NCBI RefSeq assembly: GCF_000024205.1 | Contig: NC_013216.1 | Coordinates: forward strand, 1,302,001-1,366,000 | Length of the DNA: 64,000 bases | Direction: 5' to 3' | Source: Desulfofarcimen acetoxidans DSM 771 | Lineage (GTDB): Bacteria; Bacillota; Desulfotomaculia; Desulfotomaculales; Desulfofarciminaceae | Shown: one piece after another, positions 20,804 through 57,149 of the stretch | How the letters are laid out: each line of letters begins with the position of its first letter | Position numbering within the stretch: the first letter of the stretch is position 1 | Made by a program: the position numbers and the translations under genes | The notes under the pieces: model-generated | Database searches by the model: none | Told to the model about the DNA's origin: nothing | What the model saw: only the letters and a program-made list of their open reading frames with translations

Positions 20804-20889
20804 TTATTTAACCTGACTTTTAACCTTCATACTGTGATTAAATTTAATTTAATATGGTAATAATTGTAATAGAGGGAGGTATCATAATT

Positions 20890-39137: not shown

Positions 39138-42100
39138 ATGAAAAAAAATATCAAATCTATTTATGAACCCATTGCTATTGTAGGAATGGGGTGTCGGTTC
39201 CCCGGAGGTGTTAATACTCCTGCCGGGTTTTGGGAGCTTTTACGTAATGGTGTATGCGCTATAACCGAAACACCGTCGGATCGTTGGAGCAACGATTTGT
39301 TTTACAGTAAGGATCGGGAAAAGCCGGGGAAGATCAATGCTATTCATGGTGGATTCCTTGATCGGATTGATCTTTTTGACCCTTATTTCTTTGGGATTTC
39401 CCCACATGAGGCTGCTTGGGTTGATCCGCAGCAGAGGCTATTGCTGGAAGTAACATGGGAAGCCTTGGAGGACGGGGGACAAAAACCTGTAGAGCTTGAG
39501 GGTACCGATGTTGGCGTTTTTGTGGGTGCCCTTGCTCTGGATTATCATACGCTACAGTTTAGTGATATGCTTCAATATGATATGAGCCCATATACCTCCA
39601 CAGGAAGTATGGGAACTATGCTTTCCAATAGAATTTCTTATATTTTTAATTTTAGAGGGCCTTCACTTACTTTAGACTCTGCATGTTCGTCATCACTGGT
39701 GGCAGTTCATTATGCGTGTGAAAGCCTGCGGCGGGGAGAGTGTTCAATTGCTGTTGCCGGAGGAGTTACTCTTATGTTTACACCTCAGCATAGTATTGCC
39801 GAAGCCAAAGGTGGATTTTTGTCGTCCAGCGGGCTATGCAAATCATTTGATGCCGGTGCTGACGGGTATGTCCGGGGGGAGGGCGTGGGTATTGTCGTGC
39901 TTAAGCCTCTTGATCGTGCAATTGCCGATAATGACCAGATTCAAGCGGTGATACTCGGCAGTGCTGTGAATCAAGACGGACGGACCAAGGGAATTACCGT
40001 GCCGAATTCTGAAGCTCAGGAAGCAGTGCTTCGTATGGCATATCAAAAGGCTCAAGTTGAGCCGTCGCGAGTTCGGTATATCGAGGCTCATGGTACCGGT
40101 ACACCGGTTGGAGATCCTATAGAAGCCAATACTTTGGGGAGATTTTTCAGTGCATATTCCGATGGTGCGGAGCTAATCATTGGTTCCTGCAAGAGCAATA
40201 TCGGGCATACGGAAGCAGCTGCCGGGGTTGCCGGGTTAATAAAAGCGGTTTTATGTCTTAAGCATAATAAAATACCGCCGAATCTTCACTTTAATCGGCC
40301 AAATCCTAAGATTGACTTTGAAAAGTACCGTATGAAGGTTCCCACCAATGTGACAGCATGGCCGGAAAACGCTGAGGATGCTGTCTGTGGTGTAAATTCT
40401 TTCGGATATGGCGGAACAAACGCACATCTTGTTCTAAGTAGAATGAATAGTTATTGCAAAGCTAATGAGACTAAGCATAAGGTTCTAACCCGTCCGTTTC
40501 TTTTGCCGATTTCCGCTCGAAGTAAAGATTCCCTGCGTGAATATACTAAAGCATATGGACAGCTTTCATCGGGAATTTATTCTTCCGATGAGCTTTTCGA
40601 TCTGTGCTTTAGTGCGGGTATGAGACGGGATCACCATTCTTACCGGATGGGGATTGTTTTTCAGCATCAAGCGGAGTTGGTAAGGCAATTGGAAGGATAT
40701 TTTAGGGATGGGTATTCATCTTCAATTGTTTCCGGATATGCATCTGCAAACCCCAGCCCACGACTTGTCTGGGCCTTTTCGGGCATGGGTGCGCCGTGGT
40801 GGGGAATGGGTCGGGTTTTACTGGAAAAAGAAGAGGTGTTTCAACAAGCTGTTACCCGTTGTGACCGCATTTTTAAGGAAATTGCAGGTTGGTCGATACT
40901 GGAAGAGCTAACCCGGGACGAAGTTTCCAGTCGTATGAATGAGGCATGGGTTTCACAGCCTGCAAATTTTGCTTTGCAAATAGCTTTGGCTGCACTATGG
41001 CGCTCGTGGGGCATTAAACCTGATGTGATTGTCGGACACAGCGTGGGTGAAATTGCTGCTTTTTATGAAGCAGGATGTCTTGAGCTAAAGGATGCGTTGA
41101 GATTGGTTTACCACCGCAGCCAACTACAGAGAAGATTGGAGGGCCGGGGGACGATGCTTGCTGTTGGACTTTGTGCGACAGAGGCCGAAATACTATGCCG
41201 GGAATTTTCCCGCATATCGATAGCTGTTGTTAATGGTCCTGCTTCGGTGGTTTTGTCGGGAGATAGAGAGAAGCTTGAGAGTATTGCTTTAAGCCTTGAG
41301 AAAAAAGGCATTTTTGCAAAAATGCTTAATGTTAACGTTCCCTTTCACAGTTCTTGTATGGACGAGATATTGGATGAGTTCGGGGAATGTCTTAAAAGTA
41401 TTGTTCCTCATAGTGCTGTTTGCCCGCTTTACTCCACTGTCACCGGTGGAATAATTCAAGGGTTTGAGGCGGATGCCGGGTACTGGCAGCGCAATTTGCG
41501 TGAACCTGTCCGGTTTGCTCCGGTTATACAGTCATTGATTGAAGAGGGATTTGATACATTTTTAGAGATCGGTCCTCATCCTGTGCTTTCGGTACCCATA
41601 TCGGAATGCCTTGGTACAAAGAATGGGACTGTGCTCTATTCGCTTCACCGCAGAGAAAATGATCAGCAGACTATGATAAGGTCTTTGGGAGTTCTTTATA
41701 CACGAGGCTTTGCTATAGACTGGAGTAAGCTTTACCCGGGAGGAAAAACAACTTCCCTTCCTACATATCCCTGGCAACGTGAAAGCTACTGGGTTGAACC
41801 GGATTCGGGAAGGCGTGTACGATTGGGGCTTAAGGACCATCCGCTGCTGGGTATTAGAATGCCGCAGGCAATTCCTATGTGGGAAAATGAGATTAGCTTG
41901 GAGAAGCAGCCTTTTTTAGCGGACCATGTTGTGACAGGACGTACCATGTACCCGGGTGCATGCTTTATTGAGGCAGCATATGGAGCGCTGCATACGCTTT
42001 TTTGTGATAAGAGCTGCTATATTTTAGAGGAAATAGAGTTTAAAAAGGGACTTACCGTTACGGGGCAGAACATTCTACAGTTTTATCTGGATAGGGAGCA

Positions 42101-44552
42101 GGCGGCTTTTTCTATCTTTGCCTCTGCCGATTTTGGCAGGACGGATATGGCCCTGCGTGCTTCGGGACGGATTCGGCAGACACCGGGGACGGATTGCTTA
42201 AATATTGTTGATATCAATGCTATACGAGAAAAACTTGCCTCTTATTTGTCCTCAACAGTTATCTATACAAGGTTGAAGGATATTGGGTTTGCTTATGGAC
42301 CTGAGTTTCAGGGAATTTATGAAGCATGTGTTGGTTTGGATGAGGCATTGGCAGAGGTGCGTATGCCTTGTAGAAATGAAGAGGTAGACTCATCCTATTT
42401 CTTTCATCCAATTCTTCTGGACTCATGCTTTCAGGCATTGCTGCTGGCAGATATGGGGCCGGAGTCAGGTTGCAGGAATAAAGAGATTCAGATCCCTGTA
42501 AAAATTAAAAGCATGAGAGTGCTTCGACGCCCGCCTGAACGTCTCTTTGCCCATGCCCGTGTGGTAAGCCGTGATGAATCAAGCACAACCGGCGATTTGT
42601 GGATTTATGATGATGCAGGCTTTTTGGTAGCTGAAATTCGTGGCTTTTTGAAGCAAACCGCAGATATGGCCGTATTGCATATCGACCGGAAGACATTGGA
42701 CAGCTGGGTATATTCGGTTTGCTGGACTCATAAAAACAATATAAATCTCCATGGGGATTCTTCAGTTGGTTTTCGTAAAGCGCCTGTCAACAGTCTTTGG
42801 GTAATTTTTTCTGATAATTCGGGGCTTGGTGAAAAGCTGGCTTTTTCTATTACTGCAAGGGGCGGCGCTGCTGTTTTGGTTTTTCCCGGAGAAGCCTTGT
42901 CTGCATCCTCAGACGGCACTGCATTTAAGCTTTCTCCTCAGAAGGAAGAGGAGTATCTTAGCCTTTTCCAATCTCTTAAGAGCAGGGAGGGGCAGGTTTG
43001 CCACAGGATTATTCATCTTTGGAACCTGGATGCGGGCGGCGGTGAGAAGATAAGATACGCTGATTATGTGCAAAGCCGCACGTTGGGGTGCCTGTCGGTT
43101 CTTTATATAATGAAAGCCATGGAGGCGCTGAATATTACGGCAAAGCTTTGGATTACCACTCGAAACGCTTGGCCGGCCGGAGATGACAAAACCGGTTTGA
43201 ATATTTTTCAAGCTCCGGTTTGGGGGTTGGGGCGCATTATCGGACATCAGGAGATGCTAAGAAACTGGGGAGGAGCGATTGACCTTTCGCAAGATGCTTT
43301 GGGGAATTATGAGGCAGATTTGATTTTGAATGAAATTTTGAATCCGGACGGAGAAGATCAGATTGCCTGGCGTAATAAGGGGCGTTTTGTACTTCGGATG
43401 AAAAGAGCTTCACGGATTAATCCGTCGTTTCCGGCTTCGTTTCGTGCCGACGGTACATATTTGATTACGGGGGCATTCGGTGCACTGGGGAAGGAAGTGG
43501 TCAAAGAGATGGTCCGCTGTGGTGCCCGTCATCTTGTTTTAATGAGCCGGAGCAATATTCCGGACCGCTGCGAATGGGATTCGGCGGACCAAAACAGCAG
43601 TCTTGGGAAAAAAGTTGCTTTTATCCGGCAGTTGGAGAAAGCCGGTGCAAAAATTTACATAGCTGCGGTAGATGTAGGGGATATGGAACAACTTAACGAG
43701 TTTCTGACACGGTTCAGAGAAAATGAAGGGCTTCCGTTTAGGGGAGTGATGCATTGTGCCGGCATTGTACGGGATAAGCTTTTAAACCAAATGGATGAGG
43801 ATACATTTAATGCTGTGCTCGGGCCCAAGGTCTGGGGAGCCTGGCTGCTGCACGAAGCTATGCGCGGGGAGCCGTTGGAGTATTTTGTTCTTTTTTCATC
43901 GATATCATCCTTGATATCTTTCCCGGGACAGGGTAATTACGCTGCAGCCAATACATTTTTGGATGCCCTTGCATCTTATCGGAGAGGCCTTGGTTTGCCC
44001 GCCCTATGTATTCATTGGGGGCCTTGGACCTTGGGAATGGCCCGGGATTTGAACCTTATAGATCATTTTCAGTCTGAGGGCATCGCTTGTTTTTCCCGAG
44101 GGGAAGGGCTGTGCCTGTGGGAGCATCTTATTGCCCAAAGTGTTGACCAACTGGGAGTTTTTCAGGTTGACTGGAATCGGCTTTTTCAGGTATTGCCGTT
44201 TTGTCCTCCGATGTTTTCCGAACTGTTAGAGGATGTTTCCAAACAAAATATACTGGAGGGCAGCGGTGCTGAAATGCTGCAAAAGAAACTGAGTGCTGCA
44301 AATTCCGCAAAGGCAAAAGAGAAGGTTATAGGTGAGTACCTTTTCGATTTGATTGTGGAAAAAATGAATTTTGACCGTTCTTTATTGGATGAAGAAAAGT
44401 CCCTTCCTGCATTGGGGCTTGATTCATTAATGGCTGTAAACCTTAGGGTCAGAGTATTTCAGGATACAGGTGTGGCCTTAACTGCCGGAGAGCTGTTGAG
44501 TGATCGCCCCTTAAAGGAGATAGTTTCTTTGCTTACTGTAAGTATTCAATAA
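39138..44552 (+). CDS. Single-module type I polyketide synthase (KS-AT-DH-KR-ACP)
   Basis: An 1,804-aa modular enzyme that condenses acyl units on a tethered carrier. KS (about 10-435) has DSACSSSL with Cys183, EAHGTGT and KSNIGHTEAAAG. AT (about 530-850) has GHSVGE with Ser635 and VPFHSS, which resembles malonyl-specific enzymes. DH (about 900-1190) has HVVTGRTMYPG with His930 and LLDSCFQ with Asp1095. KR (about 1440-1620) has TGAFGALG and Tyr1601. ACP Ser1763 lies in LGLDSL. There is no ER, no thioesterase and no second module, so the product is a reduced or unsaturated chain, maybe made iteratively, and release is unexplained. First gene of an eight-gene same-strand locus. Confidence 0.95.
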   Translation: MKKNIKSIYEPIAIVGMGCRFPGGVNTPAGFWELLRNGVCAITETPSDRWSNDLFYSKDREKPGKINAIHGGFLDRIDLFDPYFFGISPHEAAWVDPQQRLLLEVTWEALEDGGQKPVELEGTDVGVFVGALALDYHTLQFSDMLQYDMSPYTSTGSMGTMLSNRISYIFNFRGPSLTLDSACSSSLVAVHYACESLRRGECSIAVAGGVTLMFTPQHSIAEAKGGFLSSSGLCKSFDAGADGYVRGEGVGIVVLKPLDRAIADNDQIQAVILGSAVNQDGRTKGITVPNSEAQEAVLRMAYQKAQVEPSRVRYIEAHGTGTPVGDPIEANTLGRFFSAYSDGAELIIGSCKSNIGHTEAAAGVAGLIKAVLCLKHNKIPPNLHFNRPNPKIDFEKYRMKVPTNVTAWPENAEDAVCGVNSFGYGGTNAHLVLSRMNSYCKANETKHKVLTRPFLLPISARSKDSLREYTKAYGQLSSGIYSSDELFDLCFSAGMRRDHHSYRMGIVFQHQAELVRQLEGYFRDGYSSSIVSGYASANPSPRLVWAFSGMGAPWWGMGRVLLEKEEVFQQAVTRCDRIFKEIAGWSILEELTRDEVSSRMNEAWVSQPANFALQIALAALWRSWGIKPDVIVGHSVGEIAAFYEAGCLELKDALRLVYHRSQLQRRLEGRGTMLAVGLCATEAEILCREFSRISIAVVNGPASVVLSGDREKLESIALSLEKKGIFAKMLNVNVPFHSSCMDEILDEFGECLKSIVPHSAVCPLYSTVTGGIIQGFEADAGYWQRNLREPVRFAPVIQSLIEEGFDTFLEIGPHPVLSVPISECLGTKNGTVLYSLHRRENDQQTMIRSLGVLYTRGFAIDWSKLYPGGKTTSLPTYPWQRESYWVEPDSGRRVRLGLKDHPLLGIRMPQAIPMWENEISLEKQPFLADHVVTGRTMYPGACFIEAAYGALHTLFCDKSCYILEEIEFKKGLTVTGQNILQFYLDREQAAFSIFASADFGRTDMALRASGRIRQTPGTDCLNIVDINAIREKLASYLSSTVIYTRLKDIGFAYGPEFQGIYEACVGLDEALAEVRMPCRNEEVDSSYFFHPILLDSCFQALLLADMGPESGCRNKEIQIPVKIKSMRVLRRPPERLFAHARVVSRDESSTTGDLWIYDDAGFLVAEIRGFLKQTADMAVLHIDRKTLDSWVYSVCWTHKNNINLHGDSSVGFRKAPVNSLWVIFSDNSGLGEKLAFSITARGGAAVLVFPGEALSASSDGTAFKLSPQKEEEYLSLFQSLKSREGQVCHRIIHLWNLDAGGGEKIRYADYVQSRTLGCLSVLYIMKAMEALNITAKLWITTRNAWPAGDDKTGLNIFQAPVWGLGRIIGHQEMLRNWGGAIDLSQDALGNYEADLILNEILNPDGEDQIAWRNKGRFVLRMKRASRINPSFPASFRADGTYLITGAFGALGKEVVKEMVRCGARHLVLMSRSNIPDRCEWDSADQNSSLGKKVAFIRQLEKAGAKIYIAAVDVGDMEQLNEFLTRFRENEGLPFRGVMHCAGIVRDKLLNQMDEDTFNAVLGPKVWGAWLLHEAMRGEPLEYFVLFSSISSLISFPGQGNYAAANTFLDALASYRRGLGLPALCIHWGPWTLGMARDLNLIDHFQSEGIACFSRGEGLCLWEHLIAQSVDQLGVFQVDWNRLFQVLPFCPPMFSELLEDVSKQNILEGSGAEMLQKKLSAANSAKAKEKVIGEYLFDLIVEKMNFDRSLLDEEKSLPALGLDSLMAVNLRVRVFQDTGVALTAGELLSDRPLKEIVSLLTVSIQ

Positions 44553-44715
44553 TAATTTTTGATATTAAATATTTCAATTATAAACTAATTTTTTTTGTGA
44601 TGCATAAATCATGAAGTTTTAACAAATTTCAACAAGATAAAAGCAATTTGTTGGGCTTATATCATCAGGAAAAGGTTGGATTAAAAAGATTCAATAGTAT
44701 AGGAGGAAGGATACG

Positions 44716-45330
44716 ATGGCTACTATGTTCAGCCAGGAAAAGCTTTCGGAGGTTTTTTTGTATCGTGTCGGGGAGCTTGATCTGAGCCGGGATGATGTCC
44801 AGATGGGAACCATTAAAACTGGTGATGGAAAGGGAGAGTGTTATATCACGGCGGATCCGAATTATACCTCGGCAGTCAAATCCCGTACCTTAATAGCAAA
44901 AGATCAGGAGACATATATCCGTTACATGGGGATTCCGAAGGGGAATTTAAATGCTAACGAGATTCGCGCCCGGCTGTCTATGCCGAATGACTGGAATCAG
45001 GAAAGGAACGGGGTGTCAGAACAAGGCCTGACAGCAAACGAATATTGCAATGTTCGTAAAGCTATGAGGCTTATTGCGGCAGGGGATGGAGATTCGGTTA
45101 AAAGCTATAATGGTATAATTAACAGCCTTTATTTTCCAATGGAGATGGATGCTTTTGTTGAGGAAAATATTGTTATATCAAAAGATAAACCGCTTATATT
45201 AAAAAGCTTGGACTGCAGACCGATGGTTGTGGTGTTTGAATCGGTTACTTTGGAGGCCGGAGGTCAGATTATATGTCAGGGGGGTACGGTGATATCGCTT
45301 TGGACGGTAAATTTTACAAAAGAAAGTTAG
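44716..45330 (+). CDS. Paralogous N-terminal-domain protein of the PKS locus, no Gly-rich tail
   Basis: A 204-aa soluble protein of unrecognised family. It shares with the next two gene products a domain ending in Y.xIINSLYFPMEM, ISKDKPLILKS and FESVTLEAGGQII. The glycine-rich extension that follows this domain in its two paralogues is absent; the protein stops about 20 residues after the shared part. No signal peptide is seen. AGGAGG precedes the ATG. The tail-free copy may be a cap or adaptor of an assembly formed by its paralogues, which is inference. Confidence 0.75.
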   Translation: MATMFSQEKLSEVFLYRVGELDLSRDDVQMGTIKTGDGKGECYITADPNYTSAVKSRTLIAKDQETYIRYMGIPKGNLNANEIRARLSMPNDWNQERNGVSEQGLTANEYCNVRKAMRLIAAGDGDSVKSYNGIINSLYFPMEMDAFVEENIVISKDKPLILKSLDCRPMVVVFESVTLEAGGQIICQGGTVISLWTVNFTKES

Positions 45331-45386
45331 TTTAGAAAACCACCATCAAAACGAAATAAGGAGATAAAATTGAGGAGGTTATTTTC

Positions 45387-46619
45387 ATGGAAAAATCGCA
45401 GGATAATATTTTGAAAGTACTGGGGCTTAATGAAACACATGCCAATACCGGTGATTTTGTCACCGGGGAGTCAGGAAAGCCTGTTCCCAAAGATCCGGAA
45501 TCCAATAATGCAGCATACCGGATTCACCTGGTCACTATTAAAGATGTTGACAGTTATAAATGGCTTATGGGTATAAATGATGAGCATTATGAGAGCGGCA
45601 GGATGGAAGATCCCCATGCCTATCCTGTTCCGTGGCCCGCCCGTAAAAACTCAATCTTTCTGGGAGAACTAGGGACAAAAGACAAACAGGATCTGCAGCA
45701 AGCTTTTAAAAATTATGTATACGGCAATTCACAAAAGACGCAGAGTTATCGTGATTTAATAAACCGGGCATATTTTCCGATGGAAATGTCGGTGGCAGTA
45801 GGAGGTAGTATTACTGTTACAAAAGTCAAACCGCTAATAATCAATGAAAATGTTCCTGTTTTTTTGAGTTATGACCAAATAACTTTTGAGCCGGGAGGCT
45901 ATATTGCAAATTATTCAAATACAACAATTAAGGCTGAAAATACTGTGGTTCAGGGCAGTGGCCCGGATGCCTGGGGCGGTGTAGTCAATGTGGGCGGTGC
46001 AGGTGGCAGCGGAGGTAAGGGCGGTGACGGTGGAAACGGTGATCCGGGTTCTAAAGGTCAGGAGGGTGAGAGCAACAAGGGTGGCTGCTCCAGGAAAGCC
46101 GGTCAGGGTGGTACGGGCATAACCGGAGGCAATGGTGTCAAAGGTGGGGATGGCAATGATGGTGGTCCTTCCAAGGAAACTCACTTTGAAGTGACGAGTA
46201 AGCTGGTAGGAATTTACTATGTGGCTAGTATTGGGGGCCCGGGTGGCAATGGCGGAAAAGGAGGCAATGGCGGAGATGGCGGTGAAGGAGGCTCCGGCGG
46301 AGACGGATGCGGAGGCCCCGGTCCCCAGGGTCAAGGGGGAAAAGGCGGCGATGGCGGCGATGGTGGAAGCGGTGGCAATGGTGGTAATGGCGGTGATATA
46401 TATGTGACATATACCGAAAAGGCTCCGGATGCGGATATTCGTATCGGGATTGCCCCCGATGAGTATAAAGATTACGGCAAGGGCGGAAGCGCGGGAGATG
46501 GCGGAAATGCCGGCAATGGCGGGCCCGGAAACCCGAAGGGCGGGGGGGGACAACCCGGTAATTCAGGCAACGCAGGTAAGGGAGGAGCATCAGGCAAGAT
46601 TTATATCAATGGGCAGTAG
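45387..46619 (+). CDS. Glycine-rich repeat protein with paralogous N-terminal domain (copy A)
   Basis: A 410-aa protein. Residues about 1-185 form the shared domain (LINRAYFPMEM, TKVKPLIINEN, ITFEPGGYI). The remainder is a GGxGGxGGxG-type low-complexity region in three blocks, broken by two beta-strand-like inserts (THFEVTSKLVGIYYVASI near 263 and DIYVTYTEKAPDADIRI near 335). Glycine is nearly every second or third residue, with Asn, Asp, Lys and Ser between, as in polyglycine-II helix bundles. There is no proline-hydroxylation-type collagen triplet. No signal peptide. GGAGG ribosome site present. Confidence 0.8.
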   Translation: MEKSQDNILKVLGLNETHANTGDFVTGESGKPVPKDPESNNAAYRIHLVTIKDVDSYKWLMGINDEHYESGRMEDPHAYPVPWPARKNSIFLGELGTKDKQDLQQAFKNYVYGNSQKTQSYRDLINRAYFPMEMSVAVGGSITVTKVKPLIINENVPVFLSYDQITFEPGGYIANYSNTTIKAENTVVQGSGPDAWGGVVNVGGAGGSGGKGGDGGNGDPGSKGQEGESNKGGCSRKAGQGGTGITGGNGVKGGDGNDGGPSKETHFEVTSKLVGIYYVASIGGPGGNGGKGGNGGDGGEGGSGGDGCGGPGPQGQGGKGGDGGDGGSGGNGGNGGDIYVTYTEKAPDADIRIGIAPDEYKDYGKGGSAGDGGNAGNGGPGNPKGGGGQPGNSGNAGKGGASGKIYINGQ

Positions 46620-46659
46620 TAGCCGTGGCTATCTTGCTAACTAACGAGGAGGTATAAAC

Positions 46660-47841
46660 ATGAGAAAACTTACAGCCGCACAGGAAAATACGCTGATGCT
46701 GGCATTAACGGAGATGGGGCTTAAGGCTTCGGATTTTCAAGAAGCATTGGATACCGGAAAAACAGATGGTTCTACATACTTATCCGTGGATCCCGAATAT
46801 CCGTCAGCATTGAAACCAACATACGTAACTGTTGCTTCTGCCGCACAGCTGAAAAAGTTAGGTGGAATTGCCGACGAGGTTTATGAAAACGGCGCAGAGG
46901 AGCACCTTGCCCTTCCTGTTCCCTGGCCTGCCAAAAATGCAAATCTTGAGGTTTCATCGATAGAGGGGCCAAACAGATGGAATCTATGCCGGGCCTATGA
47001 GGTATATTTGTATGGAAATTCTAAACGCGTTCCAAGTTATTTAGATATCATTGATAAATTTTATTTTCCCTTTGAGTTGCCGGTATTTCTTATATCCGAT
47101 GTGGTTGTCCGAAAAGACCATCCGCTTATAATAAAAAGCCCCGAACACAGGCCGGTTGCATTAGGGTTTAAAAATGTGACAATGGAGGCTGGTTCTGAAA
47201 TTATCTGTTGTTCGGATGCTGGCATCAGAATATGGAATCTTGTGACGGAAGGCAATAGTCCGTCTTATATAAGAAGTATTGGTCAGGATGGAGCTGTAGG
47301 TACTAATGGGGCTCCCGGTGCAGCAGGTCAGTCCGGCGGCGCTCCCGGAGTTCCAGGTCAAGCGGGAGCTCCCGGCGGAGTGGGCGGCAATGGAAACCGT
47401 GGGGATCATGCTTACTGGGTTACCCTTCGTATTGATACCGTAACAGGAGATCTTCAGCTTTCTAACCGGGGAGGCAATGGTGGTGATGGAGGTATCGGCG
47501 GCAGCGGTGGTTATGGCGGAAATGGCGGCCGCGGAAATCTACCGGTCTCGGAAGGAGCAGGCGGAGATGGCGGAGACGGCGGTAATGGCGGGGATGGAGG
47601 CAATGGCGGCGACGGAACCTTCATTTATTTGGAATACAATACTCTCACGCCGGGAAGCACGGTTACGAAGGATGGAGAGGGCTGCAGTCCGAGTATACCG
47701 GGGAATGGTGGAAATGGCGGAATAGGCGGAATGGGTGGAACAGGACGCCCGATGGGACGCCCTGGATGTTCGGGGCATTCCGGAGCAATAGGTGAAGCCG
47801 GCCGGGCGGGCGGAGTTGTTATCAATGGAATACCCGTATAA
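46660..47841 (+). CDS. Glycine-rich repeat protein with paralogous N-terminal domain (copy B)
   Basis: A 393-aa paralogue of the preceding gene product. The shared N-terminal domain (about 1-195) has IIDKFYFPFEL, VRKDHPLIIKS and FKNVTMEAGSEII. The tail again has glycine-rich blocks broken by two beta-like inserts (AYWVTLRIDTVTGDLQL and TFIYLEYNTLTPGSTV) in the same order as copy A. Early blocks carry GAPGAAGQSGGAPGVPG, closer to collagen-like triplets. A good GAGGAGG site precedes the ATG. Localisation is unknown; no signal peptide. Confidence 0.8.
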   Translation: MRKLTAAQENTLMLALTEMGLKASDFQEALDTGKTDGSTYLSVDPEYPSALKPTYVTVASAAQLKKLGGIADEVYENGAEEHLALPVPWPAKNANLEVSSIEGPNRWNLCRAYEVYLYGNSKRVPSYLDIIDKFYFPFELPVFLISDVVVRKDHPLIIKSPEHRPVALGFKNVTMEAGSEIICCSDAGIRIWNLVTEGNSPSYIRSIGQDGAVGTNGAPGAAGQSGGAPGVPGQAGAPGGVGGNGNRGDHAYWVTLRIDTVTGDLQLSNRGGNGGDGGIGGSGGYGGNGGRGNLPVSEGAGGDGGDGGNGGDGGNGGDGTFIYLEYNTLTPGSTVTKDGEGCSPSIPGNGGNGGIGGMGGTGRPMGRPGCSGHSGAIGEAGRAGGVVINGIPV

Positions 47842-47932
47842 TGCTTGCGTAGTCTCTATTTAATGATATTGTGCTTCGGGAAAACGGATGGAAAGGGATG
47901 TTTTCCCGGAGCAGAGCTTCGGAGGGATGAAA

Positions 47933-48631
47933 ATGGATGACTTTGTAGATATTCTAATTGACGGCGGGGCAAATGGTGCCAACGGAGTGGGGGGCCAGCC
48001 AGGATATGATCAGGAACCTGCGGGTGACGGGAAACCCGGAAGCTATGATAAAAAAAAGCATCAATGTATTCCTCCTACCGGAGGAGATGACGGAAAACCC
48101 GGTGAAAACGGTGAAAACGGACAACCTGGGGTAAGTGGAGGCAGTTCCTGCGACTTCATTTTCTATGCCATGCAAATTAACAGCGCCCAAAAGGTGGTCA
48201 TACACAGCCAGGCCGGTAATGGCGGTAACGGCGGCGATGGTGGAAAAGGCGGGAAGGGTGGCAATGGAGGAAATGCAGGTAAAAGTGACACAAAGTGCCA
48301 GGAAACCTTTGTGACCGGCGGAAAAGGCGGAAACGGAGGGCATGGCGGCAGCGGAGGCGCCGGTGGCGCGGGAGGAAACAGCGGCAATATGTCTGTTTTT
48401 TATACTGATTATAGCGGAGAAGGGCTTCCGGTTCAATGCCTTTGCGTTGCAGGTGCGGGAGGGAAGGGAGGCCAGGGTGCTTCGGGGGGCAATGGGGGTA
48501 CCGGTGGATTTAACAGTGACGGGACATTTGCTCAAAACGGGATTTCGGGTTTAAGTGGCGATGCGGGTGCCGGCGGAAAAGCAGGGAGCAGTGCCGAAGC
48601 AATAGTGAAACAGGTTCCTGCTCCGGTTTAG
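47933..48631 (+). CDS. Glycine-rich repeat protein without the N-terminal domain
   Basis: About 232 aa. It starts MDDFVDILIDGGANGANG and is glycine-rich almost throughout, again with two beta-like inserts (CDFIFYAMQINSAQKVVIHS and NMSVFYTDYSGEGLPVQCLC). ATG 47933 is preferred, as GGAGGG lies six bases upstream; the frame extends to an ATG at 47888 with no ribosome site. It has several cysteines (three near the start of inserts and two in QCLC), unlike the two paralogues. It has the same Gly-block/insert plan but lacks the shared N-terminal domain. Confidence 0.78.
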   Translation: MDDFVDILIDGGANGANGVGGQPGYDQEPAGDGKPGSYDKKKHQCIPPTGGDDGKPGENGENGQPGVSGGSSCDFIFYAMQINSAQKVVIHSQAGNGGNGGDGGKGGKGGNGGNAGKSDTKCQETFVTGGKGGNGGHGGSGGAGGAGGNSGNMSVFYTDYSGEGLPVQCLCVAGAGGKGGQGASGGNGGTGGFNSDGTFAQNGISGLSGDAGAGGKAGSSAEAIVKQVPAPV

Positions 48632-48648
48632 CAAAGGATATGAAGATC

Positions 48649-48723: not shown

Positions 48724-48797
48724 ATTTTCTATATTAAGTTTTTCATATTATCAATATTAATGGCGGTGTATGTAAAAACAAATTTCGGGAGGGGCCC

Positions 48798-49925
48798 ATG
48801 AACCTAAATCAATGGCAACAAACGCTCCAGGCACGGTTCAAAGGTATCTATTCTATTCCCCAGCTTCTTGAGGAGATTGAAGCGTCACATAAAAAACTGC
48901 TGCGTGGATTTGACAGGAAGGCAAATTATATTCTTTGCATTATTGAATATGTATTCCAGGAAAAGACGTTAGCAGAAATTAAAAAAAGGCAGGAGGGCAT
49001 TGCCCGTCTTCGTACGGACGGTCACGGTATGCTGGCTTGGTGGGGCGGGGAATTGCCTAAGGGCTGTCAGATATGTCTTCACGGCAAACGCGGATTTCAA
49101 CCCATTCGCTCTGTAACAAAATGCAATCTGCGGTGCAAGTTTTGCTATTACAGCAGTGAGCACGATGAGTATGAGGAGCTTCTTCCCGGACATTTTCAGG
49201 TAAACTCCATGTACAGGCAAACAGACGACGTCAAGGTTATGATAGACAAGCAGGGCGCGGAGCTCGGGGGAGTTGCCTGGGTTTATTTTGAGCCCTTTAC
49301 GGATATAGAGAAGCATTATGAGTTGATCCAATATATCCATAAACGGGGATTGTACCAGTGGATGTATACTAACGGAACGTTATGCAGCGAAACATCATTA
49401 AAAAAACTTGCTGAATGCGGGCTTGACGAACTCAGGTTTAATCTGGCAGCTACGCATTGCAGCAGGCCGGTACTGGAAAACATGCGTATTGCTGCAAAGT
49501 ACGTACCGGCTGTCGGGATTGAATCTCCAATGTATCGTGAGTATTATGAAGCATTGCTGCAAAACAAAACGGAGATACTGGAAAGCGGCATCAAATTTAT
49601 AAATTGTGCAGAGCTTCATCTCCACTCGGATAATGTACAAGACTTTTCTGACGATGGGCTATATGTCTACAAGTATGGATATGTTTCTCCCGTTACAAGC
49701 CGGCATTATACCTATGATCTGATGGAACTGGCGGAAAAGGAGGGGTGGAGAGGTATTACCATCCATGATTGTTCCAACCAGACCAAGGTTTACCGGGGCA
49801 TTTTAAAAAGAGCCAATTTCGGTGTGGTGGATTACAAGTCCCAAAACGGACTGCCCCCGGGATGGCAGCGGCGGATTGTAGAAAAATATCCTGAGGTTTT
49901 CGAACCGTTTTTGGATGTGCGATAA
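48798..49925 (+). CDS. Radical SAM enzyme (COG2108-like)
   Basis: A 375-aa radical SAM protein. The 4Fe-4S motif CNLRCKFC has Cys109, Cys113 and Cys116. It is preceded by LPKGCQICLHGKRG, an extra Cys pair typical of the COG2108 group related to pyruvate-formate-lyase activators. The strands GVAWVYFEPFTD and YTNGTL, and LDELRFNLAATH, complete a partial TIM barrel. The reaction is unknown; a post-translational change of the neighbouring glycine-rich proteins, or a step on the polyketide, are both possible. Ribosome site GGGAGGGG. It sits in the middle of the locus. Confidence 0.88.
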   Translation: MNLNQWQQTLQARFKGIYSIPQLLEEIEASHKKLLRGFDRKANYILCIIEYVFQEKTLAEIKKRQEGIARLRTDGHGMLAWWGGELPKGCQICLHGKRGFQPIRSVTKCNLRCKFCYYSSEHDEYEELLPGHFQVNSMYRQTDDVKVMIDKQGAELGGVAWVYFEPFTDIEKHYELIQYIHKRGLYQWMYTNGTLCSETSLKKLAECGLDELRFNLAATHCSRPVLENMRIAAKYVPAVGIESPMYREYYEALLQNKTEILESGIKFINCAELHLHSDNVQDFSDDGLYVYKYGYVSPVTSRHYTYDLMELAEKEGWRGITIHDCSNQTKVYRGILKRANFGVVDYKSQNGLPPGWQRRIVEKYPEVFEPFLDVR

Positions 49926-49978
49926 AAATACATTACTCTAAAAAATCTAATAAGTATGGATATGCAGGAGAGTGGAAT

Positions 49979-52768
49979 ATGAACTTTATCGGAAAATGGA
50001 ACTTTTCCACCCCGGATAATGCTTTTATAGGTATTGACTCTGGGGGAAAGCTGATAATCTATCCGAAACCGGTGGATGGAATGTTGAATTTTAATGCTTA
50101 TGGCAGCAACAGCAAATTTATGCTTCAGTCTGCCGTTTTATCCGGAACAGGCGCCGGAAAATATGTGGAGGGAGCAGGTGATAATTATCAGGCTTCTCTG
50201 GAGCGTGAAGGTGCGGTGTATAACTTTGCGCTGGAGGATGCAGGAAATGACAAGATCCGGATTGTGGATTTCGGTATAAACGGACAAGGAACGGACGTTT
50301 ATTATCTCAATGTTTCCGGTCAAACCCTTGGGCGTGTCAAAAAAGACAGCAATCCGCCTTCAACCACTCTATTTACTCAAACTGTTGTGACAAACGGTTT
50401 GGATTTTATCCAGAAGTGGGGGGGCGAAGGAGCAGATTTTACATGGGTATATTTCGGGGGAGTACAATTTTCAAGCGGGGTCAGGTTTTCCAATGCAACA
50501 TTGTCCTATTGTAATTTTGAAGCTGCCGTTCTGCTCAATGCCCGTTTTCAGACTACCCAGTTGGATCATACGAATTTTAAGAAAGCTGCGCTGACAGGTG
50601 CTAATTTAAATAATGCCTGCTTAAATAACAGCGACCTTACCGGTGCTTTCCTTTCAAATGCAGTGATGAATCAGATAAAATGCCGGGAGGCAGTTCTTGA
50701 AGAAGCGAACCTTAGCGGGACTTCGTTGAATGATGCAGACTTCACTTCTGCCAGACTAAGAAAAGCGGACTTCACCAAGGCGATAGTCAACGGGGTCAAT
50801 TTGACCGATACCGATCTCAGAGAGGTTAAGATGAGCAACCCCAAAGATCCCGGACAATGGACCATCTATATGAAAAATGCTGTTATCAGTTCAAAGACCA
50901 ACTTTGCCGGAGCGCAAATGCAGTATTTAAACCTCACAGGTCAAAATCTGGACAACGTTGTTTTTGCCCATACGGATCTGACAGGGTCGGCAATGGACAA
51001 TACAAGGCTCAATCATGCAGACCTTAGTTATGCAAACCTGTCAAATGTCAGTATTACCGGAAATATTCCAATGCATGGAGCAAATCTTTCCAATTCAGTT
51101 TTAAGCTCAACCAACCTGACGGGTGCTCAAATGGGCTCTTTGAGCGTGTTGTTCCGTATTACGGATCAAACGGGGGTTGCAGGGTTTAAAAAAGCGCTGC
51201 AGAATTCCGATACGGTAACGGTGAAAAAGATATTTGCCGATAACGGTGTACCTTTAGAGGGAGATATAGTAATAAACTCATCCCAGTATGCCCCGGAAAG
51301 GGTCTGGGAGGTCCGTACCGCAACAAAAACCTATACGGTCAGGCTGGAAATAATAAATAACGCTGAGGCAATGGTGGTGTATGAGACAGTTACTGCCGCT
51401 ATAATTGAAAATGCCTATATGATGAATGCGGTGCTTACCTCTGCTAATCTTTATAATGTCAGAGCCTCAGGAATACAGCTGTTCGGACCCAAAGCAAAGC
51501 TGGACGGGAATGCCATTTTGGAAAAAGCCCAATTTGACGCCTCAAATTTAAGCGGACTTAATTTAAAACAAGCCCTGCTTTACGGCATTAATTTGAACTA
51601 TAGCAATCTGGTCGGCGCGCAGCTTCAAGGAGCAAAGCTTGGGCTGGATTCCGACGGTGGGCAGGCTACCTTGAAAAATTCCAATTTACAGGGAGCGGAT
51701 TTCTCGGATGCGTCCCTTGATTATGCCATGTTCACCGATGCCGCTGTTTCTGTGGGCAGTGATGATGGCATGGGTAGACCTGACGGTGTCTGGCTTTTTA
51801 GTGCCCCGTCAGACCAGACCGAGGTTTGCCTGCAAGAGTTGGAAAACAGCAAAAAGCTGTTCAATATGCCGATAGAAATGGAACAAAATTTGCAGCCGGG
51901 AAAGGTGAGCCCGGAGCTGAGGGATGCATTTGCACAGCATGACGTTGAATTGAGTGCCGATGCGCTTGTTTGCGGTCAGGAGATAGGCTTTCAGTGGCAG
52001 ATAACCGATGGAAATGAGCAATATCTTATTTACGAAGGCTGCGATCAGCAAAAATATACACCTGCGTTGATCGTAGATGTCATTTCTACGTCCGAGAGCT
52101 TTCCGATTCCTCTTAGCCTTAAAAGTGATCTAAAGAACGGTCCTGTGTCCAATTTAATTAAAGTTGCTTTCGAAACATACGGCTCTATTAATTTGACCGA
52201 CCGGGCCTGGCTGACCGTACAGCCGATATCTGTTGTATGGCAGGTGGTGGATTCCAACATAAATTATACTTTGTGGCGCGGTTTGGATATGTCCTGTTCT
52301 TTAGCCCTGTTTGCCCGCCCTAGTCTCTCAAACGTTACGGCGTTGTTCGGCTCCCGTTCAGTGGTGCTTAGTCAGCGTGCCCAGGTAACTGCAAACGGAA
52401 CCGGTAAATATATGCTTGACAATGACAGCAATAATCCGTACAATCCGCTAAATGGTTATATACGGTTTAATGTGATTAAAAATGGTAATGTTCTGGATGT
52501 TTATGGGTATGCTGTTCGAATTTTGGCTACCGGTGCCGATAATCAGCAGGAATATAAAAACATTATATGTGAGGTTACCAAGCTGTCTGAAAATGAATTG
52601 ACGGATCAAACTGTATGTCCGAACAGTGCATTCACCAGGACAAACAAAGCCAATATGCTGCCCTTTCGCCAATGGATGCGTGCCCGTGTACTTCCGCGGC
52701 CACCCGTATGTATACCGTCTCTGGACGGAACCTATTATTGTCCCAATAGCGTGGAAGGCGGTATGTAG
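49979..52768 (+). CDS. 929-aa pentapeptide-repeat protein with repeat modules
   Basis: An unrecognised large protein. Residues 1-115 look like a beta-rich lipocalin or lectin-like domain. Pentapeptide repeats of the A(D/N)LxX type run through about 160-395 and resume at about 470-590, forming a right-handed quadrilateral beta helix. Between and after them are three copies of a roughly 55-residue module (about 401-457, 636-686 and 715-768) with the pattern F..(G/D)..L...x.V......W.V.D....Y.(I/L). The C-terminal 150 residues are beta-rich. No signal peptide or membrane helix. It shares the module with the next gene product. Confidence 0.8.
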   Translation: MNFIGKWNFSTPDNAFIGIDSGGKLIIYPKPVDGMLNFNAYGSNSKFMLQSAVLSGTGAGKYVEGAGDNYQASLEREGAVYNFALEDAGNDKIRIVDFGINGQGTDVYYLNVSGQTLGRVKKDSNPPSTTLFTQTVVTNGLDFIQKWGGEGADFTWVYFGGVQFSSGVRFSNATLSYCNFEAAVLLNARFQTTQLDHTNFKKAALTGANLNNACLNNSDLTGAFLSNAVMNQIKCREAVLEEANLSGTSLNDADFTSARLRKADFTKAIVNGVNLTDTDLREVKMSNPKDPGQWTIYMKNAVISSKTNFAGAQMQYLNLTGQNLDNVVFAHTDLTGSAMDNTRLNHADLSYANLSNVSITGNIPMHGANLSNSVLSSTNLTGAQMGSLSVLFRITDQTGVAGFKKALQNSDTVTVKKIFADNGVPLEGDIVINSSQYAPERVWEVRTATKTYTVRLEIINNAEAMVVYETVTAAIIENAYMMNAVLTSANLYNVRASGIQLFGPKAKLDGNAILEKAQFDASNLSGLNLKQALLYGINLNYSNLVGAQLQGAKLGLDSDGGQATLKNSNLQGADFSDASLDYAMFTDAAVSVGSDDGMGRPDGVWLFSAPSDQTEVCLQELENSKKLFNMPIEMEQNLQPGKVSPELRDAFAQHDVELSADALVCGQEIGFQWQITDGNEQYLIYEGCDQQKYTPALIVDVISTSESFPIPLSLKSDLKNGPVSNLIKVAFETYGSINLTDRAWLTVQPISVVWQVVDSNINYTLWRGLDMSCSLALFARPSLSNVTALFGSRSVVLSQRAQVTANGTGKYMLDNDSNNPYNPLNGYIRFNVIKNGNVLDVYGYAVRILATGADNQQEYKNIICEVTKLSENELTDQTVCPNSAFTRTNKANMLPFRQWMRARVLPRPPVCIPSLDGTYYCPNSVEGGM

Positions 52769-52859
52769 TAACGGCTGAATAATTCTAAGTGCTTGCAATA
52801 ATTTCAGTAAATAAAAAACAAAAGACCACGCAAAATTGTTAAAAAAAGGAGAGTGTAAA

Positions 52860-55800
52860 ATGAAAAAAAGAGAGAGAGTAACATTGCATTTTGATCTCAG
52901 TCATTGTCCGCCTGATGTGGAATTTAAACTTTTGACAGGGAAAGGAACGGGGAAGCTGCTGACTTCCTACAAGGATGCTCCGGAGAAGCTAAAGGCACAT
53001 CAAAAGTCCAACAAAGCTCTGTCCATGATACATTCCAGCCAGATCCACCGGATTACCCACTTTATAGAGGATGCCGAACTGAGTGCAGAGCGCCCGGCCA
53101 TGTATCAGGTTACGTATCCGTCACTGGACGGCCATCCCCTGCCGGAGCTGGCTATGCTCTTTGTGCATATTCCCACTGAGGCGAGGAGAAAGCACATCCT
53201 GGAGAATAAGCATTCTCTGGAAAATAAGCATTCCCTGGCTTCGGTGCAGCATCCGATGCTGCTTGCACATTACAATGTAGACATGGGTCTTGCAGCAACC
53301 AAGGATATGGATGATATATGGCTGCATGCCGATCAGATCAAACCACCGTACGAGATCGCAAAGACATTGATATTTCAGCATCCTGAGATAGGCAGTGTGA
53401 ATCCGAAGGTGGCGAGCATTGTTTTCGATAATCACGTTAAATACACCCAGGCATTTCAGGATTTACTGCAATATATTATAAATCACCCACCGGAATCGGG
53501 GCAGTCATGGTATAAAAAAGGCTACTCCACATGGGTTAATCCCGCCACCGGCAAGGAGGAACCCATACCTGCAAATGAGGACCTGACATATAAGAACGGT
53601 GCAAAAGCCAACTGGCCGGTGGTGAATGGCGTACCGGTCATTCCTCTGTATGATTTGACAGACAAGTACAATACCGGAAGCGACGGGGTGGTTGAGGCAA
53701 CTGCGCCGGTGGTTGCGCAGGTTCTGGTATCCACCAAAAACGATGCCCTTTTAAATGGACAGCTCTGGACCAAGCAGGCAGGTGAGACTCAAAAGGTGCA
53801 AGCCGATGTTCCGCCCGCCCCAATGGTATTTAAAGCTATGAACACGTCTGCAAAAGGCTTTTCCATTAAAAACACCACTTCGCAGTATGGTCTTTATTTA
53901 TATGATGACGAAATGGCCTATAAGAACAATAAACTAACTGTTCCGGTTAAAAACTGGCCAGCCCGCTATCTCGGAGCATATGTGCAGTTTTTCAAAGAGG
54001 ATGGAAGTCCAATAAAACGAAGTGATATACCCGGGTGGGAAAATCAGATGCCATCTCCCTTGGACAAAGTACTTGAACCAAGTGATGTGAAAAACTTCCT
54101 CACATATATCAGCTGTGGAAATGCGGTGTTTGGTGTACCGGTGCCGCCTCTTACAAATAAAACTAATTTGGAATTTCTCTGGCCGCAGGAAGCTTCCAGA
54201 GCTCAGATCCTATTGGGAGGACTTGGCGTAGCTTCCGGCTTTACTGACTGGGATACAGATGTAGATGTGGTAGGAGTCCTTATGACTTCGTTTCTCTGTT
54301 ACGGTTTTTCGGCACTGAGCATGGCCCTAACTGTCTATATTGTCAATCCTTTTCTAAAAAGCTTAGACAAGGATGCTTTCTTCGGCTTGATGGCTATTGC
54401 AGGTACTATTGGAGCAACGGCACTGGTTCTTGCTGTTAATTATAAGGATACCACTGCAGGAAAATATATTTTGGCCAAACTGGCAAATCAGGTTGCAAGT
54501 ATTATTTTTGGTGTTGCAGTTAAACAAATAGCTAATAAGATATGGAAAGATGCCATAGCAGAGATTATTGCCGCTTCAGTGGCCCAAATCACTGCTGAGG
54601 AAGCGCTGGAGCAGATTCCGTATGCCGGATGGGCCCTTAAAATTGCCAGCGTTGCAGCAGATCTGGCTGCTATCTCAGCGACTACAGTTGAATGTCTCCT
54701 TTCTCCTGCTACCTACAAATTGGATATACAGCATACTTTGGACCTGACAGTTACGGTCAAACCGGACCCTGCTCACGGGAAACCCGGTGTACTGCCTGTA
54801 TGGCCGGCAGTCAGTGATCATTATGTCATTCAGGTAAAATACCCCAAAGGAAACAGCCAGGATGGCGGAACTACCTATATCAAGGCCGGACCGATGCCCG
54901 GAAAACATGATGATCCCATCACAGTAGTATTTTCAGGCATACCGGCGGGGGGGAAAATTGATGTAACCGCAGGTATCTATTCGGATAACGACTGGCTGGC
55001 CGGTAAATGGGAAAGCGGTTGGATAAATGCAGATCCGGATAGTAACGATGAGCTTAAAATAGAAGGCAGCATAGAAGAAAACTTGGTTCCGCTTAATTCC
55101 GACACAAATTACTCTCAAAAACAGAGGCTTAATTATTCCGAGGCTCAGAAGCATTACTGGGAAGTAACCCTTTTCTCAATAGATGACACATTAAAGAGTG
55201 AATTGGATGCAGCGACAGCCGGAAGCGGAGTAAGAAAAGCCTTCCAGGATAACGGTAATCCGTTGTCGGCAAATGTGACGGTTACGGTGGTTACTAAAGG
55301 AAGCCAATGGACGTTAAAAGATAATCAGAGCGGAATTAGCTATAATATATGGGAAAAGATGATTTACAGCAGCGACGGGACAACTCTGTATGAGCTGGAA
55401 GTACAGAACCTCACCCATGCCTCGCCGCCTGCTCCTAATGTTGTCAATGACTGCGGCAATGATGGACACAGAATATGCGAGCGCATGAATATAACATATA
55501 ATAACCGGGAATATCAGCTGGGTTACGCATGGAGAGCCTCAGGACAAAACCTGCCCAGGGATTTCGGAAATGCTCCCGATAATAACCAGATGTATACTTT
55601 CCAAAGTATATCCACGCTGGGAGAGCCTCAGGACTCTATTATTGAGCCCGGCCGCGGATTTTCCAATCCCTCGTATATAGCCTTTGATCAGTTTGGACTG
55701 ACTGTTCTTTTTGATCTTGATCCGCAGACCTATATGTCTCTGTTGAATCAGGGTGGGGCGGTACCGGTAAGTATTAAGACCGAGTTTGCAAAATACGGTC

Positions 55801-57149
55801 TGGCTCTTCCCGATGATGCGCAAGTGACTGTGGTTGCAAAAAGTCAGGAATGGAATATTGGGCAGCCCGGCAAGGACCTGCTTTACACACTGAAGTTAAT
55901 GAAGGAAATCAAAAAAGGAAATTGGCAGGATACGATAAATGTATACAGCTGGCCCATGCCTCATGTGGATAATTTCTACCTGGATTCCAGAAGCTATACC
56001 CCGGACAACCGGATTTATTACCTCCGCGGCATTACTTTTAAACAGGGTCAGTCTACATTTGAATACGATACCAAAAAAAGTTGGGGACGTTTTCAGGACA
56101 TAACGATCAAGGCACTGGCCGTACATCCTTTGGGTTATGTTGTGGGAGCTGATTATGACAATCATAAGCTTGTAACCCTGCGTTTGCCGTCAGATGCCGT
56201 TGACGATGAGCAGTCGCCTTATGCAATGCCTCTTTCCGGGCAGGGGTTGCGTGAAGGTTTGCTGAACAAGCCGGTAGCACTGACAGTTACTGCCGATGGC
56301 AGGATTCTCATCCTGGAAGAGGGAAATCAGAGGATTCAGGCATTTGACATCTGTGGTAATCCGGTTTCTTGTTTTTCAGTAGGCCAGCCGTCCTTTAAAA
56401 TTGGCACCCAATACAAAGAAGAGCTTGATGCCAAATCCCCGGAAACTGATTTGGTCCGGGAATTTCAGCAAAACGTCAAGCCGGAGTTGGCACCGCTTTT
56501 TACCGGTCACACCTCCTCGGTGGACAGTTTGAACAAGGGAGTTGTTGACGCAACTCTGCAAAATGATTTTAAGACCAATGGCTATACCTCGGGAGATAGT
56601 ATCGATCTCAGTGCATCAGTTACAAAAACGGGTGAATTATGGTTGGTAACGGATAATACTTCCAAAGCGGTATATGACGTCCGGATGATAAAAGGAGTTC
56701 TAACAATATATCATAGCTTTACCTTTGATGTGGAGGTCAAAGTCAGGAGCAAGGCGTGGCGTCTCACAGACACCACCAATGCAATGGTATTTGAAATAAC
56801 AGGATCGGATAAGGACCTCACCGTGCAGCGTGTAGTTTCCGTGATGCCTTTGCGTGAGCAAGGTCAGGCAGGCATTTCGTATCTTGACATTGCAGTTGAG
56901 GGCAAGGGGTATGTTTACGTACTGTCCGTGCTGAAGCAGCAAAGCAACTCTGTGTATCGGCTGGATATATACAACCCGGACGGAACTCCATTGCTTAACA
57001 AGCCGCAAACCGGAGTAAATGCAGCGAAATTAGCAGTTGATCAGTGGCGTTCACTATTCACAATGAACTACGATATGGTTCTTGGCCCGGGCGGAAGGAC
57101 CGAACCCGGTATCAGTCAGTGGATTCCGTCAACTCCGGGGAAACCTTGA
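52860..57149 (+). CDS. 1,429-aa protein with hydrophobic core, NHL-like repeats and shared modules
   Basis: The largest accessory protein, not recognised. The N-terminal 470 residues are soluble with short repeats (LENKHSLENKHSL). Residues about 475-650 contain several hydrophobic helices, then an immunoglobulin-like beta stretch. At least three copies of the module shared with the 929-aa protein lie near residues 775-837, 954-1015 and 1220-1280. NHL-like segments (IKALAVHPLGYVVGADYDNHKL and PVALTVTADGRILILEEGNQRIQAF) lie at about 1085-1180. ATG 52860 has AAAGGAG; a TTG at 52836 in frame has none. The hydrophobic core could insert into membranes, which is inference. Confidence 0.78.
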   Translation: MKKRERVTLHFDLSHCPPDVEFKLLTGKGTGKLLTSYKDAPEKLKAHQKSNKALSMIHSSQIHRITHFIEDAELSAERPAMYQVTYPSLDGHPLPELAMLFVHIPTEARRKHILENKHSLENKHSLASVQHPMLLAHYNVDMGLAATKDMDDIWLHADQIKPPYEIAKTLIFQHPEIGSVNPKVASIVFDNHVKYTQAFQDLLQYIINHPPESGQSWYKKGYSTWVNPATGKEEPIPANEDLTYKNGAKANWPVVNGVPVIPLYDLTDKYNTGSDGVVEATAPVVAQVLVSTKNDALLNGQLWTKQAGETQKVQADVPPAPMVFKAMNTSAKGFSIKNTTSQYGLYLYDDEMAYKNNKLTVPVKNWPARYLGAYVQFFKEDGSPIKRSDIPGWENQMPSPLDKVLEPSDVKNFLTYISCGNAVFGVPVPPLTNKTNLEFLWPQEASRAQILLGGLGVASGFTDWDTDVDVVGVLMTSFLCYGFSALSMALTVYIVNPFLKSLDKDAFFGLMAIAGTIGATALVLAVNYKDTTAGKYILAKLANQVASIIFGVAVKQIANKIWKDAIAEIIAASVAQITAEEALEQIPYAGWALKIASVAADLAAISATTVECLLSPATYKLDIQHTLDLTVTVKPDPAHGKPGVLPVWPAVSDHYVIQVKYPKGNSQDGGTTYIKAGPMPGKHDDPITVVFSGIPAGGKIDVTAGIYSDNDWLAGKWESGWINADPDSNDELKIEGSIEENLVPLNSDTNYSQKQRLNYSEAQKHYWEVTLFSIDDTLKSELDAATAGSGVRKAFQDNGNPLSANVTVTVVTKGSQWTLKDNQSGISYNIWEKMIYSSDGTTLYELEVQNLTHASPPAPNVVNDCGNDGHRICERMNITYNNREYQLGYAWRASGQNLPRDFGNAPDNNQMYTFQSISTLGEPQDSIIEPGRGFSNPSYIAFDQFGLTVLFDLDPQTYMSLLNQGGAVPVSIKTEFAKYGLALPDDAQVTVVAKSQEWNIGQPGKDLLYTLKLMKEIKKGNWQDTINVYSWPMPHVDNFYLDSRSYTPDNRIYYLRGITFKQGQSTFEYDTKKSWGRFQDITIKALAVHPLGYVVGADYDNHKLVTLRLPSDAVDDEQSPYAMPLSGQGLREGLLNKPVALTVTADGRILILEEGNQRIQAFDICGNPVSCFSVGQPSFKIGTQYKEELDAKSPETDLVREFQQNVKPELAPLFTGHTSSVDSLNKGVVDATLQNDFKTNGYTSGDSIDLSASVTKTGELWLVTDNTSKAVYDVRMIKGVLTIYHSFTFDVEVKVRSKAWRLTDTTNAMVFEITGSDKDLTVQRVVSVMPLREQGQAGISYLDIAVEGKGYVYVLSVLKQQSNSVYRLDIYNPDGTPLLNKPQTGVNAAKLAVDQWRSLFTMNYDMVLGPGGRTEPGISQWIPSTPGKP

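Follow-up and report, generated by a model that had tools for sequence, protein, structure and literature searches.

Polyketide synthase (PKS)-type lipid synthesis by the enzymes of the Hgl island serves the glycolipid structure of heterocysts. The pentapeptide protein HglK is required for the placement of these glycolipids in heterocyst walls (PMC8145042). Among protein folds, polyglycine-II has hitherto been encountered chiefly in antifreeze proteins and at the tips of phages. The gp38 protein of phage PP01 consists of a beta-helix and a polyglycine-II sandwich with receptor recognition loops (PMC12892980). Here we describe a locus of eight genes in Desulfofarcimen acetoxidans DSM 771, at positions 39138-57149 of a 64,000-nucleotide stretch of contig NC_013216.1 (1,302,001 to 1,366,000; hereafter the window), in which a single-module PKS stands beside glycine-rich proteins, a pentapeptide-repeat protein and a giant NHL-like protein. 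Sequence comparison shows that seven of the eight genes are a real, undescribed and horizontally moving cassette and that the radical S-adenosylmethionine (SAM) gene is a local addition.

Gene content and conservation of the locus

The eight open reading frames (ORFs) all lie on the + strand with intergenic gaps of 40-166 bp (163, 56, 40, 46, 166, 53 and 91 bp in gene order), which confirms the single strand and short gaps stated in an earlier sequence-only reading of this DNA. Its domain assignments, namely KS-AT-DH-KR-ACP, pentapeptide repeats, radical SAM, an NHL-like protein (here by a weak match) and the relatedness of A1, A2 and A3, were also confirmed. The genes, with the names used below and the evidence for each, are as follows.

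39138-44552, + strand: PKS, single-module type I synthase, KS-AT-DH-KR-ACP, 1804 aa (Pfam, catalytic residues, KS clade)
44716-45330, + strand: A1, short beta-helix-type A-domain protein without a glycine-rich tail, 204 aa (homology to A2 and A3)
45387-46619, + strand: A2, A domain plus glycine-rich polyglycine-II-type tail, 410 aa (homology, tail analysis)
46660-47841, + strand: A3, A domain plus glycine-rich tail, 393 aa (AlphaFold2 model, structure comparison)
47933-48631, + strand (listed ORF from 47888): G, glycine-rich polyglycine-type protein without an A domain, about 232 aa (ORF, Shine-Dalgarno sequence)
48798-49925, + strand: SAM, radical SAM enzyme, accessory, 375 aa (Pfam; none in other BIG loci)
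49979-52768, + strand: PENT, pentapeptide protein with a trefoil-like N-terminus, a pentapeptide beta-solenoid and copies of a domain of about 65 aa, 929 aa (Pfam, hidden Markov model (HMM))
52860-57149, + strand (listed ORF from 52836): BIG, giant NHL protein, 1429 aa (NHL profile, model, family members elsewhere)

Ribosome-binding sites are good at all genes except at the listed start of G, for which 47933 is the better start, with GGAGG at 47922 and in agreement with G homologues. The start of BIG is most likely 52860. Within the locus, the number of predicted promoters matches that expected from shuffled sequence.

When about 85,000 species were scanned with an alignment of BIG, relatives emerged in 26 other species. 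ORF mapping, with flanking DNA added for truncated loci, placed BIG, A, PENT and PKS genes together in 19 of the 26, with G in nearly all of them and G-like genes holding the same position in the other cassette loci. These 19 loci belong to Tumebacillus (1), Paenibacillus (4), Mucilaginibacter (1), Anaerovorax (1), Xenorhabdus (5) and Photorhabdus (7), and so to Bacillota, Bacteroidota and Pseudomonadota. Homologues scattered without co-occurrence had been named beforehand as the outcome that would speak against a common locus; it turns out that seven of the eight genes stay together, and a chance origin of the set is excluded because it is conserved in other phyla. The expected co-occurrence did not extend to the radical SAM gene, which has no homologue in any other BIG locus. 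Cassette content is kept and gene order is variable, the PKS gene being first in the window and last elsewhere. Searching plasmids with the A3 domain gave a single match, a Xenorhabdus bovienii megaplasmid on which BIG, A, G, PENT and PKS adjoin one another and share 27-37% (BIG), 31-36% (A), 28% (PENT) and 35% (PKS) identity with the window.

BIG is present in only one of 150 genomes related to that of the window, namely its own, and the A domain in one of 398 genomes of the phylum and three of 247 Paenibacillaceae genomes. The first two of these counts support the horizontal gain that had been proposed. By their KS domains, the cassette PKSs of all three phyla fall into a single clade (support 94/89), whose sister comprises PKS modules of Tumebacillus and Paenibacillus clusters of the PKS-non-ribosomal peptide synthetase (NRPS) type. 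Pairwise distances of the cassette proteins are strongly correlated (Mantel r 0.985 for BIG/PENT, 0.94 for PENT/PKS and 0.92 for BIG/PKS; p 0.0001 each), and the cassette moves and evolves as a whole.

BIG and PENT are adjacent or close together wherever the contig permits. BIG-like genes without any A domain occur in seven Paenibacillaceae genomes, and in all seven Paenibacillaceae loci read PENT directly follows BIG. Pseudomonas, Ancylobacter and Yinghuangia have, after BIG and before PENT, a protein of about 560 aa, and in Saprospiraceae the same protein is placed between two BIG genes. Two of four examples of it pass the curated cut-off for LBP_BPI_CETP_C, and it is likely a TULIP-type (BPI/LBP-like) lipid binder. 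The A domain is confined to genomes with the PKS form of the cassette. The family thus exists in three forms, BIG-PENT, BIG-TULIP-PENT and BIG-A-G-PENT-PKS, with the BIG-PENT pair as the core and with A, G and PKS as an add-on alternative to TULIP.

Beyond weak NHL and weak collagen matches, A, G and BIG belong to no family in Pfam, NCBIfam, PHROGs or PADLOC. A1, A2, A3 and G match no Pfam family above cut-off, and the core proteins match none of the PADLOC anti-phage defence models. That a pathway with such a mix is undescribed was borne out in the literature searched, mostly without subscription journals, in which no paper on the gene set was found. The component folds are known, and we rate the kind of system, with caution, as new to the libraries and literature searched.

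Several loci carry additions to these three forms. Paenibacillus pinihumi (L050, L021) has an extra BIG-PENT pair directly after the full cassette, and Tumebacillus and Paenibacillus (L017, L018, L019, L021, L023) have, between PENT and PKS, another BIG-like gene of smaller size (about 850 aa). BIG and PENT relatives in an Acidobacteria metagenome-assembled genome (L020) are split over several frames, through decay or sequencing error. GerA/GerB/GerC-type spore germination operons adjoin the BIG-PENT pair in four Paenibacillaceae loci (L105, L108, L109, L110); the pair of L105 has only about 27% identity with those of the three other loci. Upstream of BIG in L106, L108, L109 and L110 is a conserved promoter-like block, TTCATA-16-TATAAT, followed by the palindrome-like CTGGATAACGTTACCAG. 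A sporulation link of BIG-PENT, considered from the GerA neighbours, was unsupported, this upstream block resembling a sigma-A promoter with a palindrome.

The radical SAM protein has a CX3CX2C motif and gives a weak viperin-like match in PADLOC. Its relatives (39-46% identity) occur in five of 398 genomes of the phylum, in other neighbourhoods and in none of the BIG loci, and we set the gene aside as accessory. The flanking remnants that the sequence-only reading reported were found in part: a DruA-like fragment at 37447-37782 (Pfam E 1.6e-10, profile positions 97-156 of 297) adjoins a dprA-like gene at 36059-37420, and no IS110 C-terminal domain is present within the window. Just upstream of PKS, the 375-bp stretch 38462-38836 has a 93% identical copy elsewhere in the genome, at G000:C1:3749733-3750107, and may be a repeated or mobile element; pieces of 38869-39075 recur at 85% elsewhere. 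A protein with an Mrr-type restriction endonuclease domain (E 2.6e-11) is encoded at 20854-21858.

Domains and predicted folds of the cassette proteins

The NHL assignment of BIG is weak and sub-threshold by Pfam (E 0.003), but the family profile compared with NHL propellers in the PDB identifies the C-terminus as such a propeller (TRIM71, Thin; E 6e-20). Residues 466-614 form long, partly hydrophobic helices that are retained in most of the family, and residues 625-740 are predicted to form an FnIII-like sandwich (Z up to 8.3), the only fold that we take from the model of residues 1-946. PENT proteins are 640-930 aa long and carry extra domains; a weak fascin trefoil match (E 0.03-0.07) lies at the N-terminus. 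HMM searches revealed a private domain of about 65 aa common to the two proteins, with three copies in BIG and four in PENT of the window, that is absent from the minimal BIG-PENT pairs. The Myxococcales BIG and PENT both start with lipoprotein-type signals.

An N-terminal domain is common to A1, A2 and A3 (27-34% identity), and A1 shows homology to the C-terminal end of the Xenorhabdus BIG protein. In Xenorhabdus and Photorhabdus, BIG ends in a fused A-like domain, which in X. innexi is encoded by an ORF of its own. An AlphaFold2 model of A3 built with 26 homologues (predicted local distance difference test (pLDDT) 85.3) consists of helices and a beta-helix, followed by a polyglycine/polyproline-II bundle. 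In this predicted model the tail superposes on the snow flea antifreeze protein 2pne (Z 13.5, root mean square deviation (rmsd) 1.1, 81 residues) and resembles the springtail protein 7jjv (Z 10.7); gp38 of phage PP01 was fourth in the Foldseek list, with a weak E-value. The A-domain profile gave at most weak matches among PDB sequences, the best (E 0.03) to designed proteins, and A and G had no PHROGs match.

Photorhabdus carries up to five extra A genes arrayed upstream of BIG. Among 28 Photorhabdus A proteins the mean column entropy is 0.56 bits in the N-terminal domain; in the tail it is 0.24 bits for glycine columns and 1.98 bits for all others, a large contrast between columns that are not independent, and the tail loops vary in length as well. 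The A tails are accordingly modelled here as polyglycine-II tips that would display variable loops. In four Photorhabdus loci (L027, L031, L035, L036; 1-9200) the A paralogues upstream of BIG number three to five, stand in tandem and differ strongly in their tail loops, and in L030, L033 and L039 further A genes lie between PENT and PKS.

The PKS is a type I modular synthase with intact active sites in KS (Cys-His-His), AT (GHSxG), DH (His/Asp), KR (Ser/Tyr) and ACP (Ser), and is the only PKS of the genome with a KAsynt_C_assoc domain; the Anaerovorax cassette PKS is without AT. Pfam detected no downstream module, NRPS or thioesterase in the PKS, and the loci have no genes in common outside the cassette; such a partner for release is usual, though not universal. 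The nearest relatives are PKSs of Tumebacillus and Paenibacillus PKS-NRPS clusters (KS identity 52-56%), in which the single-module PKSs adjoin genes of NRPS size.

Possible functions

We tentatively prefer, with less than even confidence, to see in the locus a mobile cassette for a large assembly that recognises surfaces. BIG and PENT, which lie adjacent or close together, co-evolve and share a private domain, would be joined in one complex as its obligate scaffold, and A and G would be interchangeable gp38-like binding tips. To judge from the A-like domain fused to Xenorhabdus and Photorhabdus BIG, the conserved beta-helix A domain would dock on the scaffold; the glycine-rich tail would fold as a polyglycine-II bundle showing variable loops, in the manner of phage gp38 adhesins. 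The PKS would supply an acyl or polyketide component, for instance a lipid that loads or anchors the assembly, because the sister form has a TULIP lipid binder where A, G and PKS stand; this replacement is the sole hint that the product is lipid-like. The assembly would lie outside the cell and bind other cells, hosts or surfaces.

Several points weigh against this proposal. Signal peptides are absent from the members examined except the Myxococcales pair, and no secretion, transport or tailoring gene is common to the cassette flanks among the loci compared, so that an extracellular role would need some other route of exit. The AlphaFold2 model of BIG 1-946 is poor (pLDDT 59). Loop variation could reflect drift instead of selection for binding. 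Finally, we infer both the single complex and the contact of the polyketide with the proteins, and the tie between TULIP and PKS comes from the substitution of one for the other.

A secreted toxin-like or host-interaction complex, in which the hydrophobic helices of BIG would enter target membranes, PENT and the A tips would bind and the polyketide would be cargo or cofactor, would suit the many insect-pathogen carriers (12 Photorhabdus and Xenorhabdus loci) and the retention of the helical region in most BIG proteins. Some toxins without a signal peptide are released by lysis, and the same could apply here. However, no known toxin family was matched, no catalytic effector domain was seen, and soil bacteria (Mucilaginibacter, Tumebacillus, Acidobacteria) are also carriers; we consider this explanation unlikely.

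We hold a structural coat on spores or cells, with the PKS making its lipid as in the heterocyst glycolipid layer, to be similarly unlikely, since the tip loops are far more variable than a coat protein requires. Glycine-rich lattice proteins would fit a coat, as would the lipoprotein-type signals of the Myxococcales proteins, and HglK offers a precedent for a pentapeptide protein that places glycolipids in a wall (PMC8145042). The germination operons beside four BIG-PENT pairs point the same way, but three of these four neighbourhoods are closely related, the footprint upstream of the Paenibacillaceae pair resembles a sigma-A promoter, and the majority of full cassettes belong to bacteria that form no spores (Photorhabdus, Xenorhabdus, Mucilaginibacter).

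The near-complete absence of signal peptides, the cytoplasmic PKS and the TULIP-like lipid binders of the sister form are also what one would expect of a cytoplasmic storage or compartment body, a protein-lined intracellular particle in which the PKS product is kept. Inside a cell, however, gp38-like tips with variable loops would have no obvious use; moreover, the Myxococcales members are exported lipoproteins, and propeller, FnIII and trefoil-like folds are frequent in extracellular binders. This explanation seems rather improbable.

An ordinary natural-product cluster, in which the PKS would make a metabolite, PENT would confer self-resistance and the other genes would be bystanders, has little probability in our view. 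In some clusters, pentapeptide proteins do shield the organism that makes the product. One is encoded in an NRPS operon of Photorhabdus (PMC12406682), and the PKS, with all its catalytic residues, has relatives in PKS-NRPS clusters. Nevertheless, PENT is not tied to the polyketide, because BIG-like genes persist without the A and PKS genes in the seven Paenibacillaceae genomes, next to PENT where the locus was read, and with TULIP proteins elsewhere. Self-resistance through PENT was rejected on the pairs that have no neighbouring PKS. In addition, PENT is large (640-930 aa) with extra domains, and no tailoring, transport or release genes are common to the loci. An ice-binding system with snow-flea-like antifreeze tails, suggested by the near-identical predicted fold and by Tumebacillus permanentifrigoris as a carrier, is most improbable, as the tip loops are variable, most carriers have no link to cold, and PKS, BIG and PENT would be left unexplained.

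The surface-recognition assembly is related to the earlier proposal of a polyketide-modified protein fibre, coat or contact-delivered particle, which is possible, with polyketide attachment and delivery both putative; a binding role is favoured over a plain fibre because of the polyglycine-II tips with variable loops. Overall, the sequence-only reading is partly supported. A further and more doubtful step would be to see in the cassette a new class of machine, with a giant scaffold, swappable gp38-like tips, a polyketide lipid from a dedicated synthase, cross-phylum spread and a tip repertoire in insect pathogens. The cassette joins a PKS to putative non-enzymatic recognition proteins, is mobile and persists in bacteria that are only remotely related. 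Should the product of the PKS prove to belong to the assembly, polyketides would have a use other than as small-molecule antibiotics or as the envelope lipids already known. In Photorhabdus, the tandem A genes with their varying loops would be a natural repertoire of polyglycine-II binders, and the split between the core (BIG-PENT) and the add-on (A, G and PKS, or TULIP) makes the question approachable in culturable strains.

Comparison with described systems

The Tumebacillus and Paenibacillus PKS-NRPS clusters contain the nearest relatives of the PKS, whereas the cassette PKS is without an NRPS, thioesterase or tailoring partner. In contrast to natural-product clusters in which a pentapeptide protein is tied to a biosynthetic enzyme, BIG-PENT pairs occur without a PKS next to them, and also with TULIP. 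In the sister form, a TULIP (BPI/LBP-like) protein separates BIG from PENT; such proteins are absent from the window, where A, G and PKS replace them. The heterocyst Hgl system is similar by analogy, as a pentapeptide protein and PKS-type lipid synthesis there serve one surface structure; it differs in that HglK has four membrane spans and in that descriptions of the system include no BIG, A or G proteins.

The polyproline/polyglycine-II bundle of the snow flea and springtail antifreeze proteins is found in the predicted A3 model, whose tail superposes on 2pne. This likeness is one of predicted fold alone, and in the cassette protein the bundle follows a beta-helix A domain as its tail and has variable loops. 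No phage tail-fibre or other phage structural genes were seen, the scanned neighbours being chromosomal, and the seat of gp38 in a phage genome has no counterpart in the cassette (no PHROGs match, and no BIG relatives in a scan of viral contigs). The cassette differs from gp38 also in being encoded on a chromosome with a PKS and giant proteins and in having an N-terminal A domain of another type, and binding by the A tips is putative. The gp38 tips of T2/S16/PP01-type phages nevertheless share with the predicted A3 model, and with the loop entropy of the A proteins, the design of a gp38-type adhesin: a beta-helix part, and then a polyglycine-II lattice with variable loops.

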